NCBI RefSeq assembly: GCF_014217785.1
Contig: NZ_CP048814.1
Location: 992,001-1,056,000 of the forward strand
Direction: 5' to 3'
DNA length: 64,000 nucleotides
From: Rhodococcus triatomae
GTDB lineage: Bacteria > Actinomycetota > Actinomycetes > Mycobacteriales > Mycobacteriaceae
Below the pieces are notes generated by a model. That model had not been told where the DNA came from. It worked only from the letters and a program-made list of their open reading frames with translations, and did not search any database. Both the position numbers and the translations under genes were made by a program. Every line of letters begins with the position of its first letter. Position 1 is the stretch's first letter. Shown in pieces: positions 58,477-64,000 of this stretch.

Positions 58477-59226
58477 TCACGGCCACAACTGATCCACCGT
58501 CCAGCCGGAGGCTGCGCGGGCATACCGGTGACGCAGGTGCCTGCGGCCCGGGTCCGCCTGCCAGAATTCGACCGTGTCCGGGACGAGGCACCATGCTCGC
58601 CACGTCTCGGACACGAAATCCGGTTCCCCGTCGATCCGGTCCACGGCCGCCGCCACCAGCCGGTCGTACTCCTCCGGGTCGGCGAGCACCTCACTCTGCC
58701 GGCTCACCGTCGCCACGGCGCGGGCGGTCACCGACCGCTCCAGGAAATCGCGTGCGGACACCCCTTCCCCACCGTTCTCGACCACCCCGCGTACCCGTAC
58801 CTGACGACCCGCCTCACGCCAGTAGAAGGTGAGAGCCGCCCTCGGATCCCGTTCCAGCTCCACACCTTTCGGTGACCGGGTATCGCCGGAGAACCAGAAC
58901 CCACGATCCGTGACGTCCTTGAGCAACAGGAACCTGGCGTCCGGCGCACCCGCCTCGTCGACAGTGGACAGGGTGGCGGCGTGCGGCTCGACCACCCCGG
59001 CCTCCACCGCGTCCGTCAGCCAGTCGAGGAACAGCGCCGTGGGAGTGTCGCGCACCTCGAGCGCACCGGCTGCGCCGGTGACCGTATCGAGCGCACCGGC
59101 TGCGCCGGTGACCGTATCGAGCGCACCGGCTGCGCCGGTGACGGACGCAATGGCGCGGATCCACGCCCGCGTATCGTGAAACTCTGTCCGCTCGGGATGC
59201 CCACCCGTAGTTCGTGATTCGCTCAT
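58477..59226 (-). CDS. Pyridoxamine 5'-phosphate oxidase family protein (PdxH-like)
   Basis: This 249-aa FMN-binding split-barrel protein has PdxH-like motifs: PTALFLDWLTDAVEAGVVEP, MTLSTVDEAG-like AATLSTVDEAGAPDARFLLLKD, GFWFSGDTRSPKGVELERDP, ALTFYWREAGRQVRVRG and the C-terminal FWQADPGRRHLRHRY. The N-terminus carries a run of three VTGAAGALDT-type units from a 30-bp tandem repeat (59057-59142), absent from typical PdxH. It may act on pyridoxal phosphate or on another substrate of this large family. Confidence 0.75.
   Translation of the reverse strand: MSESRTTGGHPERTEFHDTRAWIRAIASVTGAAGALDTVTGAAGALDTVTGAAGALEVRDTPTALFLDWLTDAVEAGVVEPHAATLSTVDEAGAPDARFLLLKDVTDRGFWFSGDTRSPKGVELERDPRAALTFYWREAGRQVRVRGVVENGGEGVSARDFLERSVTARAVATVSRQSEVLADPEEYDRLVAAAVDRIDGEPDFVSETWRAWCLVPDTVEFWQADPGRRHLRHRYARAASGWTVDQLWP
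59057..59142. repeat. 30-bp in-frame tandem repeat
   Basis: Three near-perfect copies of a 30-bp unit starting TCGAGCGCACCGGCTGCGCC lie inside the PdxH-like gene (59057-59086, 59087-59116 and a 26-bp third copy). A multiple of three keeps the frame, adding ten residues (VTGAAGALDT) per copy. Confidence 0.95.
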
Positions 59227-59235
59227 CGGACCAGA

Positions 59236-59712
59236 CTAGGCGGACGCCGGCGGTTCCAGCATGTCCCACTTGTTGAACGCCAGACGAAAACTGGGAATGT
59301 CCGACAGCGCAATGGCCGATTCCCACGTCCGCTCGAACGACGTGTACGCGATACGCCAGCGCCCGGCGTCGTCGCGAACGTACCGGTCGTGGTAGTACGC
59401 CGAGCCGCGCAGCAGCAGTCCGTCCTCGGGAACGATCGTGGTGTCCGCCAGGAACCACACGCCCGTCGCGGTGTCACCATCCATCTCGATCTCCGGCTGG
59501 CAGCACTGATGCTCGGTGATCACGTGCGTGCCGAGCGTGTTCTCGAGAAAGGACACGAACGAGTCACGAGTGTCGAATCTGAGGTACTCGCCGTATATCG
59601 CCGTCGCCTCCGGGATCATCGTCTCGGTGAACTCGGGCCAGGACTTGGTGTCGAGAGTCCGCGCGAAACGGTGCTTGAGCTGGTGGATCTCCCGGATCGC
59701 ATCGTGATCCAT
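59236..59712 (-). CDS. SnoaL-like/NTF2-fold protein
   Basis: This 158-aa protein has the NTF2-like pattern: DHDAIREIHQLKHRFARTLDTKSW, FTETMIPEATAIYGEY, HQCCQPEIEMDGDTATGVWF and GSAYYHDRYVRDDAGRWRIA. The group resembles the SnoaL_4 proteins that act as isomerases or dehydratases. AGGAGG lies 8 nt before the ATG at 59712. It lies next to the PdxH-like gene (9 bp apart, same strand) and may be cotranscribed with it. Confidence 0.75.
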   Translation of the reverse strand: MDHDAIREIHQLKHRFARTLDTKSWPEFTETMIPEATAIYGEYLRFDTRDSFVSFLENTLGTHVITEHQCCQPEIEMDGDTATGVWFLADTTIVPEDGLLLRGSAYYHDRYVRDDAGRWRIAYTSFERTWESAIALSDIPSFRLAFNKWDMLEPPASA

Positions 59713-59829
59713 GTGGTCCGCCTCCTGTACACGCCCGAGCAAGCCGTGGTTACAGGTTAGTCGGAACCCCCCGTGACGTTGCGGTGAATGGATGCGTACC
59801 GCGGCAACCGAACCTCGACTGCGGTGTAC

Positions 59830-61062
59830 TCAGGCTCCACCGCGGCCCGCAAGCCGCGTCGCGGTGCTCTGAACATTGCGGTCGATCCATGCGCGGGCAG
59901 TTTCAGGGAAGAGGTCCCTGGACGCACCAGCCCATGCTTCGAGGAAGCCCTCGATCGTTTCGTCCACCACGTCCAGCACGTCCGCGTTCTCAACCTGCAA
60001 CAATCGTTGCATCCTATCGAACTGCGGACGACCGATACGCTCCTGATTCTTCGTACCGCCGAACTTCAGCCCGAGGTCATCGGGCCGATCGCTCGGGTAG
60101 TAGCCCGCAGTGGAGACGACGTCATACGCTGGTGACAACTGTGCGCGGCGCCCGTCACGATAGATCAGCGACCAGTTCTTCAGATGCGCATCACCGTTTC
60201 CGATAAGCACATTGAAAGTAAGCCGTCGCACGAATTCGCGAAGCGATGCGCTGTCTTCGTTGCGGTATACCAGACCACCAACCGTCTCGAATGAACCGGA
60301 ATACTTGTCGACCGGGTAGAAGTTTCGCACCTGTGCGAGATCCTCGATGTGCACTCGACCTCCGTCAGCCAGCCTGTCGAATCGCGCGACGGCGTACGCA
60401 CGCTCCTCCTGCCCAGGCCACATCACGTCGGGTACGTCTGGCAGTTCGTCTCGATGCAGCAGCTCGATCCGCGGACACTCGATCCCGACCTCACGTGCCA
60501 GGGACATACTCGCGAACTCGTTCGACGGCACCTCCGGGTGCACCGCGTCCGGAAACTTCACGATCCAGTCCCCCAGCTCGGTTCTCGCCGGAATGCTGAG
60601 CCGGTCACCGCGACGCAGCATCGAGAACTTCAGCCCGACGCCTGCGAGCGAGAACTTCCAGGGTGACGTGCCCTCCGGAGGCTCCGAGGCTCGCGCCGAC
60701 AGATCGTCGAACGCGTCGACCGGAACATCGTGCTCGTCGCCCGCAACCACTTCAACGGCGCCCGGCAGATCGTGCCCGATCTGCAAGAGCAGTTGCAGTT
60801 CGCGCTGTGCGGGCACACCGCGGTCCCGGGCAATCCACTCGCGAAGTGGCCCCTCGGGGAGCAGATTCGAGAACCACCTGGGGAGGTTCAACGACGCCTG
60901 TGGCGACTGCCTCGGATTGTCCTCGAACCACAATCCGAGCACGTGGCGCTGCGGGTTGTCCCAATAGTCGTCGTCGAACACGAAGCGTGCGACGTCGCCG
61001 CGCTGGAGGATCCTCCCGACTCTTCGGCCACCGAGCCGAACCGTGTGCGCAGCCTGGATCAC
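59830..61062 (-). CDS. HipA-family Ser/Thr kinase-like protein, coupled to DUF262
   Basis: This 410-aa protein has the HipA N-terminal domain (LGLWFEDNPRQSPQ, RWFSNLLPEGPLREWIARDR), the Gly-rich loop AGVGLKFSMLRRGDRLSIPA (about 140-159), the catalytic GNGDAHLKNWSLIY with D291 and N296, and the metal-binding D313 in SPAYDVVS. HipA kinases phosphorylate aminoacyl-tRNA synthetases and cause growth arrest. No HTH antitoxin HipB is encoded on either side; instead a DUF262 gene lies immediately upstream with a GTGA overlap. GC is visibly lower than in the core genes, which suggests transfer. Confidence 0.85.
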   Translation of the reverse strand: MIQAAHTVRLGGRRVGRILQRGDVARFVFDDDYWDNPQRHVLGLWFEDNPRQSPQASLNLPRWFSNLLPEGPLREWIARDRGVPAQRELQLLLQIGHDLPGAVEVVAGDEHDVPVDAFDDLSARASEPPEGTSPWKFSLAGVGLKFSMLRRGDRLSIPARTELGDWIVKFPDAVHPEVPSNEFASMSLAREVGIECPRIELLHRDELPDVPDVMWPGQEERAYAVARFDRLADGGRVHIEDLAQVRNFYPVDKYSGSFETVGGLVYRNEDSASLREFVRRLTFNVLIGNGDAHLKNWSLIYRDGRRAQLSPAYDVVSTAGYYPSDRPDDLGLKFGGTKNQERIGRPQFDRMQRLLQVENADVLDVVDETIEGFLEAWAGASRDLFPETARAWIDRNVQSTATRLAGRGGA

Positions 61063-62720
61063 GGTGTATCCGCCACGCTCTCCAGAACGATGTCTTCCTC
61101 GTCTACGACATCGTCGAAATCGAACTCAGTCAGCGGAGGGGTCATCTCCAGGTGCATTCCGGTCTTCTCCGAGAGAAACTGTTCGACCTGCTGTTCGAGC
61201 AGTGCACGACGGAGCGCGAGAAACGTCTCGTTGCTTCCCTGCCGAACAGCTTTGTTCGTATCCTCGTTCAGGAGGTGGGACCGCCAATGCTCGGGCTTCA
61301 GTCTCTCGAAGAACTCGGCCCTGTCGACAACTGCGAGCACACGATTGGCGGCGTTCGAAGCTGGTGTCCTCGGGAGTAACTCGAGCACAACATCGCGCGG
61401 CGACGTCTCGGACTCGAGAGTTCCGGCAAGCTCGCCGTGTGTGAGCGGCACGCCGGTTGCCGGATTGATCGGCGCCAATGCCCACAACGCGCCGACGATG
61501 ATCTTGCCTGCCGAGTTGTTGGTCCGGAACGAGTCGAGGTTGGGCGACGGGATGCTCTCGATGCCCGTCGTCGCGTGAAGCAGCCGTTGGACACTGCCGT
61601 TCTCGTCGTCCGGTTGCACGAGATGAGCAAGCGTCCGAATATTCGCCGTCGAGCCCGTGTAGCCGAGAGGCGCCGCGAGCGCTGTCGAACGCCACACCCA
61701 CCGCGATAGCAGTTCGAGATTGCGAGGTGCAGGTGAAGAAAAGTGCGCGAAGAACCGTGCGAGAACCAGAAGGTGGAACCTGAAAGGTACGAACGCGCTG
61801 TGCGGGATTCCGGCGCTCTGCTGTAAGAACTTCGCCACGCGGAAGAGAGCATCTTCGCCACGCCGGTAGGCGTCCTCGCGATTGTCGGCAGCGAATGTCA
61901 CCGCGGCCTCGCGGTCGCCGCTGAACTCGGTGCGGATGTCCCGGGTCAAATCAGGGTGCCGAATGACGAGAATCGCTTGGTAGATGGTCTGATCCGGCAG
62001 AAGACCGAACTCTGCCCGTCTGTCGAGACGATCAGCAATCGCCGACATGGACAGCTCGGCTCCGGACCCGTCAGCGGCACCGTGAATGGCATCGAAGATC
62101 TCCGATCCTCGGAGGCGCTTACCGGCCGAGTTGATCCGATCGAAGATCTCGCGCAGAAGCCGTTCGTCGCCCTCGTCGATGACGGCGGCAGGAACCTCGA
62201 CGTCTCTCAACAGCCCCGTCACCCGTTGAATATCCTCCGCAAACTCCGCCGCGTCGGGATTCTTCTGAAGCCAGGCGAACGCCCGGCCGAGGTCGAAGAG
62301 ATCGGGCAGAGGGATTGCCAGCGAATCCCGCACGTCACGACTTAGGGCGAACTTCCGCTTCGCGAGCACGTAGGAAATCGCGAATCTCTCGTCATCGGAC
62401 GCCACCGGATCGACTGCATTGACCAGGCTGGTGATCCGCTGCTGACCGTCGATGACCCACAGTGCATCCGATCTCGCCGCGGCGTCGACCTCGATCGCTC
62501 CGATCGTCAGCAGGCCGGCGGGTGCGTCTCGACGCCAGAGGAGTGTGCCACCGAACGGGTAGCCACGGAGAATGCTGTCGAAGAGCGCCAGGACATCACT
62601 CGCCGCCCACCGAAACGAGCGTTGGAACTCGGGGATCCTCACCTGCCCGGAACGCACCAAGGACACGAGATCCTGAATCCGGAACTTTTCGTTACGTGAC
62701 CTGGTGGTGCTTTCAGTCAT
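61059..62720 (-). CDS. DUF262 (GmrSD-type N-terminal domain) protein
   Basis: This 553-aa protein has the DUF262 pattern: KFRIQDLVSLVRSGQVRIPEFQRSFRWAASDV (about 12-43, written in pieces RIPEFQRSFRW) and the DGQQRITSL motif at 91-99 typical of the ParB-like nuclease/NTPase core of GmrSD-type restriction enzymes. The long C-terminal part has no DUF1524 HNH domain that I can see (no clear H...N...H set). GAGAGGA precedes the ATG at 62720 by 6 nt. Its stop overlaps the HipA start. The two proteins probably act together. Confidence 0.8.
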   Translation of the reverse strand: MTESTTRSRNEKFRIQDLVSLVRSGQVRIPEFQRSFRWAASDVLALFDSILRGYPFGGTLLWRRDAPAGLLTIGAIEVDAAARSDALWVIDGQQRITSLVNAVDPVASDDERFAISYVLAKRKFALSRDVRDSLAIPLPDLFDLGRAFAWLQKNPDAAEFAEDIQRVTGLLRDVEVPAAVIDEGDERLLREIFDRINSAGKRLRGSEIFDAIHGAADGSGAELSMSAIADRLDRRAEFGLLPDQTIYQAILVIRHPDLTRDIRTEFSGDREAAVTFAADNREDAYRRGEDALFRVAKFLQQSAGIPHSAFVPFRFHLLVLARFFAHFSSPAPRNLELLSRWVWRSTALAAPLGYTGSTANIRTLAHLVQPDDENGSVQRLLHATTGIESIPSPNLDSFRTNNSAGKIIVGALWALAPINPATGVPLTHGELAGTLESETSPRDVVLELLPRTPASNAANRVLAVVDRAEFFERLKPEHWRSHLLNEDTNKAVRQGSNETFLALRRALLEQQVEQFLSEKTGMHLEMTPPLTEFDFDDVVDEEDIVLESVADTP

Positions 62721-62831
62721 AGCAAATCCTCTCGCATACAGGCCATTATGGCATCTGTCACTCACATTTCCGGCTGCGCGGAAACCGCAAGAGACCTCCT
62801 GCGACAGCATCCACGAAGGTGACGTATCCGA

Positions 62832-64000
62832 TCACTCGAGCTCTGCGGCGAGCTCCATCCAGCGTTCCTCCGTCGACTCCTTCTCCGCGACGACGCTCTT
62901 GAGTTCGCCGTCGAGGCGTTGCAGCCGCTCGGGATCGGTCGCCGCCTCGGCCAGGCTCGCGTGCAGAGCGGTCTCCCGCTGGTCGAGCTTCGCGACGGCA
63001 CGTTCGAGGCGTGCCAGTTCCTTGCGCGCAGCTCGGTCGGCCGCCCCGTCCCGCACCGATTTCGTGGCGGAGCCGGCGGCCTGCGATGCCACGGACGGTG
63101 CCGCACTCGCCCCGGCTGCGGCGCGACGGCGCAGATACTCCTCGATCCCACCGGGGAGGTTGGTGAGCCGCCCGTCTCCGAACAGAGCCCAGGTCGAGTC
63201 CGCGATCCTCTCGATCAGGTACCGGTCGTGGCTGATCACCACCAGGGTCCCGGCCCACCCGTCGAGCAGATCCTCCAGTTGCTGGAGAGTGTCGATGTCG
63301 AGGTCGTTGGTCGGCTCGTCGAGCAGCAGCACGTTCGGTTCCGCCATCAACACCCGGGTGAGTTGCAGACGACGGCGCTCACCACCGGACAGGTCGCCCA
63401 CCGGAGTTCTCTGCCGAGCGGGCGTGAACCCGAGCCGCTCGGCCAGTTGCCCTGCCGACATCTCCTTGTCCCCCAGAGTGATCCGCTCGGCCACGTCCTT
63501 GACGGCATCGAGCACACGCATGTCGGTCGGCAGATCGTCCAACTCCTGACGGAGCCATCCGATGTGGACGGTCTGGCCCTGGATACGGCGACCGGCGACA
63601 GGTGAGGTGGCACCGGCCAGTGCCCGCAACAGCGTCGTCTTGCCCGAACCGTTGACGCCGACCAGGCCCACCCGTTCACCCGGACCCAGACGCCAGGTCA
63701 GATCGTCGACCAGAACACGCCCGTCCGGCGTCTCCAACCGCGCGTCCTCGAGCTCGACGACCACCCGGCCCAGACGGCGCTGAGCGAACGCCGCCAACTG
63801 GACGGAATCGCGCGGTGCGGGAACATCGGCGATCAGGGCCTCCGCGGCCTCGACCCGGTATCGCGGCTTGGACGTCCGGGCCTGCGGACCTCGACGCAGC
63901 CACGCGAGCTCCTTGCGAGCCAGGTTCCTCCGGCGTTCCTCCGACGCGTCGGCCTGCCGGGAGCGCTCGGCCCGGGCGAAGATCCAGTCGTTGTAGCCAC
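62832..64000 (-). CDS. ABC-F family ATPase (5' end outside window)
   Basis: The reverse strand gives the C-terminal part of a duplicated-ABC protein without transmembrane segments. An interdomain linker (ARKELAWLRRGPQARTSKPR) leads into the second ATPase: Walker A GLVGVNGSGKTTLLRALAG, signature LSGGERRRLQL, Walker B VLLLDEPTNDLDI and the H-loop VISHDRYL. A coiled C-terminal region follows (LARLERAVAKLDQRETALHA), as in Uup-type proteins. ABC-F proteins act on the ribosome. The frame is open to the window edge, so the first ATPase domain is missing. Confidence 0.85.
   Translation of the reverse strand, partial: GYNDWIFARAERSRQADASEERRRNLARKELAWLRRGPQARTSKPRYRVEAAEALIADVPAPRDSVQLAAFAQRRLGRVVVELEDARLETPDGRVLVDDLTWRLGPGERVGLVGVNGSGKTTLLRALAGATSPVAGRRIQGQTVHIGWLRQELDDLPTDMRVLDAVKDVAERITLGDKEMSAGQLAERLGFTPARQRTPVGDLSGGERRRLQLTRVLMAEPNVLLLDEPTNDLDIDTLQQLEDLLDGWAGTLVVISHDRYLIERIADSTWALFGDGRLTNLPGGIEEYLRRRAAAGASAAPSVASQAAGSATKSVRDGAADRAARKELARLERAVAKLDQRETALHASLAEAATDPERLQRLDGELKSVVAEKESTEERWMELAAELE

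Follow-up and report, generated by a model that had tools for sequence, protein, structure and literature searches.

Classical HipA is a kinase that acts in bacterial persistence (PMC8262856), and a phylogeny of 1,239 Hip kinases distinguishes ten gene organisations, none of which, in the available part of that paper, contains DUF262 (PMC8262856). HipAD (DS-6) combines a HipA kinase with a DUF3037/DUF1829 protein, and its phage defence is described in the accessible text as requiring the kinase (PMC13092281). Other DUF262-domain proteins act in defence as well (PMC10952713), and those of Menshen, Dazbog, PD-T4-2 and ptuXYZ are presented in the excerpts available as lacking DUF1524 (PMC10952713, PMC11980606). 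Here we describe a DUF262–HipA gene pair in a 64,000-nucleotide stretch of Rhodococcus triatomae DNA (contig NZ_CP048814.1, positions 992,001 to 1,056,000; the window). The initial annotation of the window had reported both open reading frames (ORFs), and both are present with matching Pfam domains. The GTGA overlap that it read between the two genes is likewise seen in the sequence (Table 1); this arrangement suggests that their translation may be coupled, and in relatives a start codon often falls within the last few bases of the DUF262 gene. The lower guanine-plus-cytosine content claimed for the pair holds in direction only, as 62.2% for the pair against 68.5% for the whole window is a smaller gap than the 60-base samples had implied. 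The pairing is conserved, and the two genes probably constitute a toxin-antitoxin or abortive-infection system in which a restriction-type sensor has switched its effector from a nuclease to a HipA kinase.

The DUF262 protein had been put forward as the partner of this HipA, and adjacency of the two genes, the rarity of which in other genomes would have spoken against that proposal, proves to be the rule. A DUF262 profile scan with one genome per species yielded 250 relatives, the best 80 of which form the main locus set, and 78 of these loci are assessable, the other 2 being cut by contig ends. In 74 of the 78 the DUF262 gene is followed directly by HipA or its remains, and in 69 a single HipA frame spans 900 nt or more, one of these 69 (L041) lacking the catalytic core. 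A second sample, of 394 genomes from the class, gives 19 DUF262 matches (E ≤ 2e-87) and 19 HipA matches (E ≤ 1e-40), all in the same 18 genomes, and the pairs are adjacent in 18 of 19 cases, the exception being G219. Chance neighbourhood is ruled out by this co-occurrence together with the 74 adjacent loci. No HipA adjoins any of the 11 weaker DUF262 matches in the same sample, one of which (L252) has a weak HipA-like match one gene away. Similarly, none of the 47 other full-length HipAs fetched has a DUF262 neighbour, eight weak partial HipA_C matches (E 5e-29 to 3e-11) having been left out of this check.

Both proteins also behave as lineages of their own. The HipAs of the pair, 38 with that of G219 included, form one clade against 48 others with a support of 99 in the Shimodaira–Hasegawa-like approximate likelihood ratio test (SH-aLRT), in a tree that included E. 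coli HipA and HipH and with which an earlier tree agreed. The DUF262 family proteins form one clade of 42 rows (SH-aLRT 100). Across 68 loci the protein distances within the two families are correlated (r = 0.87), a value reached by 0 of 2000 permutations and due in part to shared host descent. Clustering of the 1059 ORFs called at the 80 loci shows only two widely shared genes, present at 79 and 71 loci. A third operon gene was considered and rejected: the next cluster covers only 12 loci, and ten scanned representatives are metabolic, transport or acetyltransferase genes. No natural DUF262–HipA fusion occurs among the locus ORFs inspected.

The DUF262 protein retains the sensor half of a restriction-type protein. 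Its sole Pfam match is PF03235 (GmrSD_N; 6.7e-26, 92.1 bits), and its N-terminal half is ParB/Srx-like and nucleotide-binding in type, with the DGQQR motif at residues 91–95, as reported initially and invariant in 57 of 57 aligned DUF262-family rows. A structure model with a predicted local distance difference test score (pLDDT) of 88 matches BrxU and SspE, its N-terminal half matches the nucleotide-binding folds of ParB and sulfiredoxin, and VIA matches beyond BrxU, SspE and DndI are single ParB/Srx domains or helical arrangements with low scores. The initial annotation saw no DUF1524 nuclease half. It was right that no intact HNH site is present, but the half itself is not absent: a degenerate C-terminal region is homologous to the helical and DUF1524 region of GmrSD, BrxU and SspE (hhalign probability 99.1, E 5e-19, for C-terminal halves built from 39 of the 63 family rows). 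The second HNH histidine, kept in 9 of 10 nuclease-type DUF262 proteins, is found in 0 of 63 members of the HipA-linked family, in which HipA was seen adjoining for 29 rows and the other 34 are database proteins whose neighbours were not seen. The central N block of the motif is a gap in all 63. Judged by these aligned residues, the DUF1524 HNH site is shown to be dismantled in the family. The remainder of the C-terminal half is conserved, with an invariant R504 and a nearly invariant S481, as would be expected if the DUF262 protein still cut nucleic acid by a non-HNH site, with HipA as its modulator or as a second effector. We consider such residual nuclease activity very improbable, given that the whole family lacks the second histidine and the central N block and that Pfam finds no other nuclease domain in the protein.

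HipA, by comparison with E. coli HipA, is complete. Couple_hipA (PF13657, 4.4e-20) and HipA_C (PF07804, 3.2e-45) together give an N-terminal HipS-like subdomain and a kinase core, both domains standing above their gathering scores (72.5 and 154.8 bits for the two domains, against cut-offs of 22.5 and 30.5). The model (pLDDT 88) has E. coli HipA as its best Foldseek matches, at a template modelling (TM) score of about 0.7. In the alignment S138, D291 and D314 correspond to S150, D309 and D332 of E. coli HipA, whose residue numbers were counted by hand along the alignment, and all 37 pair HipAs in the alignment retain the equivalents of S150, K181, D309, N314 and D332, in agreement with the full set of kinase motifs first noted.

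The HipB repressor expected beside a HipA is replaced by DUF262 upstream, again as the initial annotation held. Among 138 small same-strand ORFs beside the pair at 66 loci, selected from 182 and scanned on that strand only, none has a helix-turn-helix Pfam match, whereas of 95 small ORFs that precede other HipAs at 46 control loci, 36 match HTH_3. The only other HipA_C match of the genome (G000:C1:3991413-3992039, L231) is preceded by an ORF of XRE-like helix-turn-helix type, as judged by eye, and resembles an ordinary hipBA module. Since this second HipA has an XRE-like ORF of its own, there is no need to assume a distant hipB for the HipA of the pair.

The pair lies in an inserted cassette, the limits of which can be read from vacant sites (Table 1). 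In three congeners (L095, L119 and L121) the ABC-F-type and SnoaL genes stand adjacent without the pair. Flank homology to L095 ends near 59797 and restarts near 62806, so that by this alignment the insert holds the two genes, their leader and little more; the alignments to L119 and L121 place its ends up to about 50 bases away from these positions. The ATPase gene on one flank is presumably of ABC-F type; its Pfam match is ABC_tran. No full-length or close DUF262 relative was found in 27 of 27 congeners, where the best match is partial (E 3e-7). A search of 72,556 plasmid records places the pair on two Azospirillum plasmids, one of them conjugative, on which the public annotation names the genes a DUF262 domain-containing protein and a HipA family toxin. 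On the conjugative plasmid (L282, NZ_CP032326.1 307082-318581) the pair adjoins a recombinase gene and is close to conjugation genes. No relative was found on viral contigs, and a single phage record has one partial place at 25% identity.

Table 1. Coordinates of the pair, its cassette and the flanking genes in the window.
Feature	Position	Strand	Remarks
hipA	59830..61062	-	410 aa, GTG start; HipA-family Ser/Thr kinase
DUF262 (GmrSD_N) gene	61059..62720	-	553 aa, ATG at 62720, stop 61059; upstream of hipA
GTGA overlap	61059..61062	-	DUF262 stop and hipA start; read in sequence
Inserted cassette, ~3.0 kb	59798..62805	.	Basis: vacant sites in L095, L119, L121
Cassette leader, probable promoter region	62721..62805	-	
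SnoaL-like gene	59236-59742		Cassette flank
ABC-F-type ATPase gene	62832 onwards		Other cassette flank

The best 80 of the 250 relatives come from Actinomycetota and also from Chromatiaceae, Methylococcaceae, Thiosymbion, Leptolyngbya and Paraliomyxa. The phyla in which the module occurs are Actinomycetota, Pseudomonadota, Cyanobacteriota and Myxococcota. As part of the same overall explanation, the pair is probably a mobile, self-contained two-gene accessory unit. An alternative places it in host physiology: HipA would act on a host target in starvation or DNA damage, DUF262 would relay a nucleotide signal, and any defence would be incidental. Such a regulator of growth state or stress would suit the ParB and sulfiredoxin nucleotide-binding folds matched by the N-terminal half of DUF262 and the persistence role that the accessible text gives to classical HipA (PMC8262856), but the sporadic spread (18 of 394 genomes, no full-length or close DUF262 in the 27 congeners), the cassette insertion and the occurrence on plasmids are more in keeping with an accessory module than with a core regulator, and we regard this alternative as improbable.

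At three of the loci (L027, L051 and L063), which belong to two species of Actinoalloteichus and an uncultured actinobacterium, the DUF262 gene is near the same two genes, which in L063 are pheS by Pfam and an 849-aa gene, probably pheT; the common neighbourhood is possibly a shared insertion site. Neither a sigma-70-type promoter nor terminators were found across 59600-62900 of the window, and a search for an upstream inverted repeat, as for autoregulation, gave nothing clearly above shuffles in the window and 9 relatives. Near the N-terminus of a pyridoxamine-oxidase-like gene at 58477-59226 of the window there are three in-frame ten-residue repeats of the VTGAAGALDT type.

Decay of the pair is uneven. 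HipA is missing (L009, L022, L062, L063) or broken (L027, L036, L041, L049, L057) while the DUF262 frame stays open at 9 of the 78 loci. The lone DUF262 genes lie near 8001-9650 in L009, L022 and L063 and at 2185-3816 in L062, where a Mutator-type transposase is encoded about 330 bases downstream. In L041 (9600-11800) an internal deletion removes the catalytic core of HipA (profile positions 181-325) and leaves DUF262 open. A search based on HipA finds 3 of 19 HipAs interrupted (G229, G324 and G098). No clear lone HipA of the pair clade was found, the only exception being G219, in which HipA is open and lies on another contig than DUF262 (contigs L246 and L208, the DUF262 contig also being L077), with no trace of DUF262 in the roughly 350 bases before it; this locus is rearranged or misassembled. 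That HipA is lost or broken more often than DUF262 is what one would expect of a costly, toxic effector under the control of a harmless regulator.

For the working of the pair we propose the following scheme, in which we infer the binding and inhibitory role of the DUF262 protein, the trigger, the target of HipA and the role in defence. The DUF262 protein would be a former Type IV restriction protein that has retained its ParB/Srx sensor and lost its nuclease, with the HipA kinase taking the place of the nuclease as effector. In the resting cell DUF262 would bind and restrain HipA, the antitoxin role played by HipB elsewhere, and its dead DUF1524 half may serve to dock the kinase. Likely triggers are DNA that is foreign or modified, or else a change in nucleotides during phage infection. 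Nucleotide binding or hydrolysis would then reshape DUF262, as described for SspE, so that HipA is freed or activated. The substrate of the kinase would be a translation factor, an aminoacyl-tRNA synthetase being the likeliest, and its phosphorylation would lead to growth arrest and abortive infection. By analogy with SspE, in which nucleotide hydrolysis activates a nuclease, the pair might even represent a distinct immune class, in which hydrolysis by DUF262 releases HipA from the dead HNH domain and foreign or modified DNA is answered with protein phosphorylation and dormancy instead of cleavage; this stronger version is a plausible one, to which we give slightly less than an even chance.

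Several observations weigh against a sensor–kinase defence system of this kind. The initial annotation had raised a location in defence islands, and the surroundings so far do not bear it out: PADLOC families number 30 among 118 immediate neighbours and 29 among 118 random genes, a comparison that counts families, not members, and takes in immediate neighbours only. Four loci carry DUF262 alone with no HipA trace, so DUF262 can persist by itself; both genes are broken in L074; the DUF262 gene of G219, which lies at a contig end, has a frame shift around residue 420; and the count of 9 decayed HipAs in 78 loci is biased, as DUF262 was used as the search bait. Because defence genes are not in excess nearby and DUF262 stands alone at four loci, plain addiction stays a serious rival: DUF262 would be a non-helix-turn-helix antitoxin of HipA, and the cassette would persist as a selfish or stabilising element that takes no part in defence. 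The compact two-gene insert, its occurrence on plasmids, the neighbourhood without a surplus of defence genes and the more frequent loss or breakage of HipA than of DUF262 (in the DUF262-based search) all agree with addiction. We nevertheless consider it rather unlikely, as a 553-aa restriction-type partner with a conserved nucleotide site far exceeds the needs of a pure inhibitor, and as other proteins with a DUF262 domain serve defence according to the part of the literature available (PMC10952713).

Should the reading with HipA as the replacement effector hold, Type IV restriction and HipA persistence kinases would be joined in one module across four phyla, a restriction-type protein could change its effector yet retain its sensor, and DUF262 systems would gain a kinase-based branch. 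HipA would at the same time gain a defined upstream signal; to our knowledge, the natural switch that turns HipA on is an open question. The combination of a dead HNH site with an intact kinase leads to sharp predictions that can be tested with point mutants.

No description of a DUF262–HipA pair was found in full-text literature searched with partial coverage and without supplements, so that its absence from print is unproved, and no model found in PADLOC 2.0.0 fits the pair; HipA matches PDC-M03A weakly. The nearest PADLOC model of the DUF262 protein is PDC-M55 (PDC-M55C, 2.2e-46), the members of which resemble it in that their HNH site is also degenerate (0 of 5 keep the second histidine). 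Membership was rejected on score, neighbours and tree branch: four true members score 757–889 bits against 156.7 for the window protein, they occupy a separate branch, and they are preceded by an AAA_15 ATPase and a gene of about 320 aa in L256 and L258 (the latter assigned by similarity only). In these two PDC-M55C-type loci (L256:4953-8925 and L258:2808-6703) the gene of about 320 aa has no Pfam match. As the PDC-M55C-type proteins are not sister to the HipA-linked family in a quick tree and have a degenerate HNH site, loss of the nuclease site may not have been a single event.

Among the HipA systems, the pair shares with E. coli hipBA the fold, size, N-terminal subdomain and kinase residues of HipA (S150, K181, D309, N314 and D332) as well as the arrangement of two overlapping genes with the kinase second. 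It differs in that the partner is a 553-aa DUF262 protein in place of a small helix-turn-helix HipB, and in that the kinase belongs to a separate clade with 23% identity to E. coli HipA. HipAD, as far as its description is available, is similar in having a HipA-related kinase with a non-HipB partner (PMC13092281). That partner is a DUF3037/DUF1829 protein, whereas the partner here matches PF03235 alone in Pfam and the defence role of the pair is a putative one. Among the DUF262 systems, Menshen, Dazbog, PD-T4-2 and ptuXYZ likewise encode DUF262 with other partner genes; where the accessible descriptions name these, they are a predicted OLD nuclease in Menshen and an ATPase with a PIN/BECR RNase in ptuXYZ, and no HipA kinase is named there (PMC10952713, PMC11980606). 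From GmrSD, BrxU and SspE the pair is set apart by a DUF262 protein that has DGQQR and no DUF1524 HNH catalytic site, followed by HipA or its remains. By its gene content the pair is neither hipBA, as it has no HipB, nor a GmrSD enzyme, as it has no HNH site, and it may function in the manner of a HipA toxin system whose partner is of restriction type.

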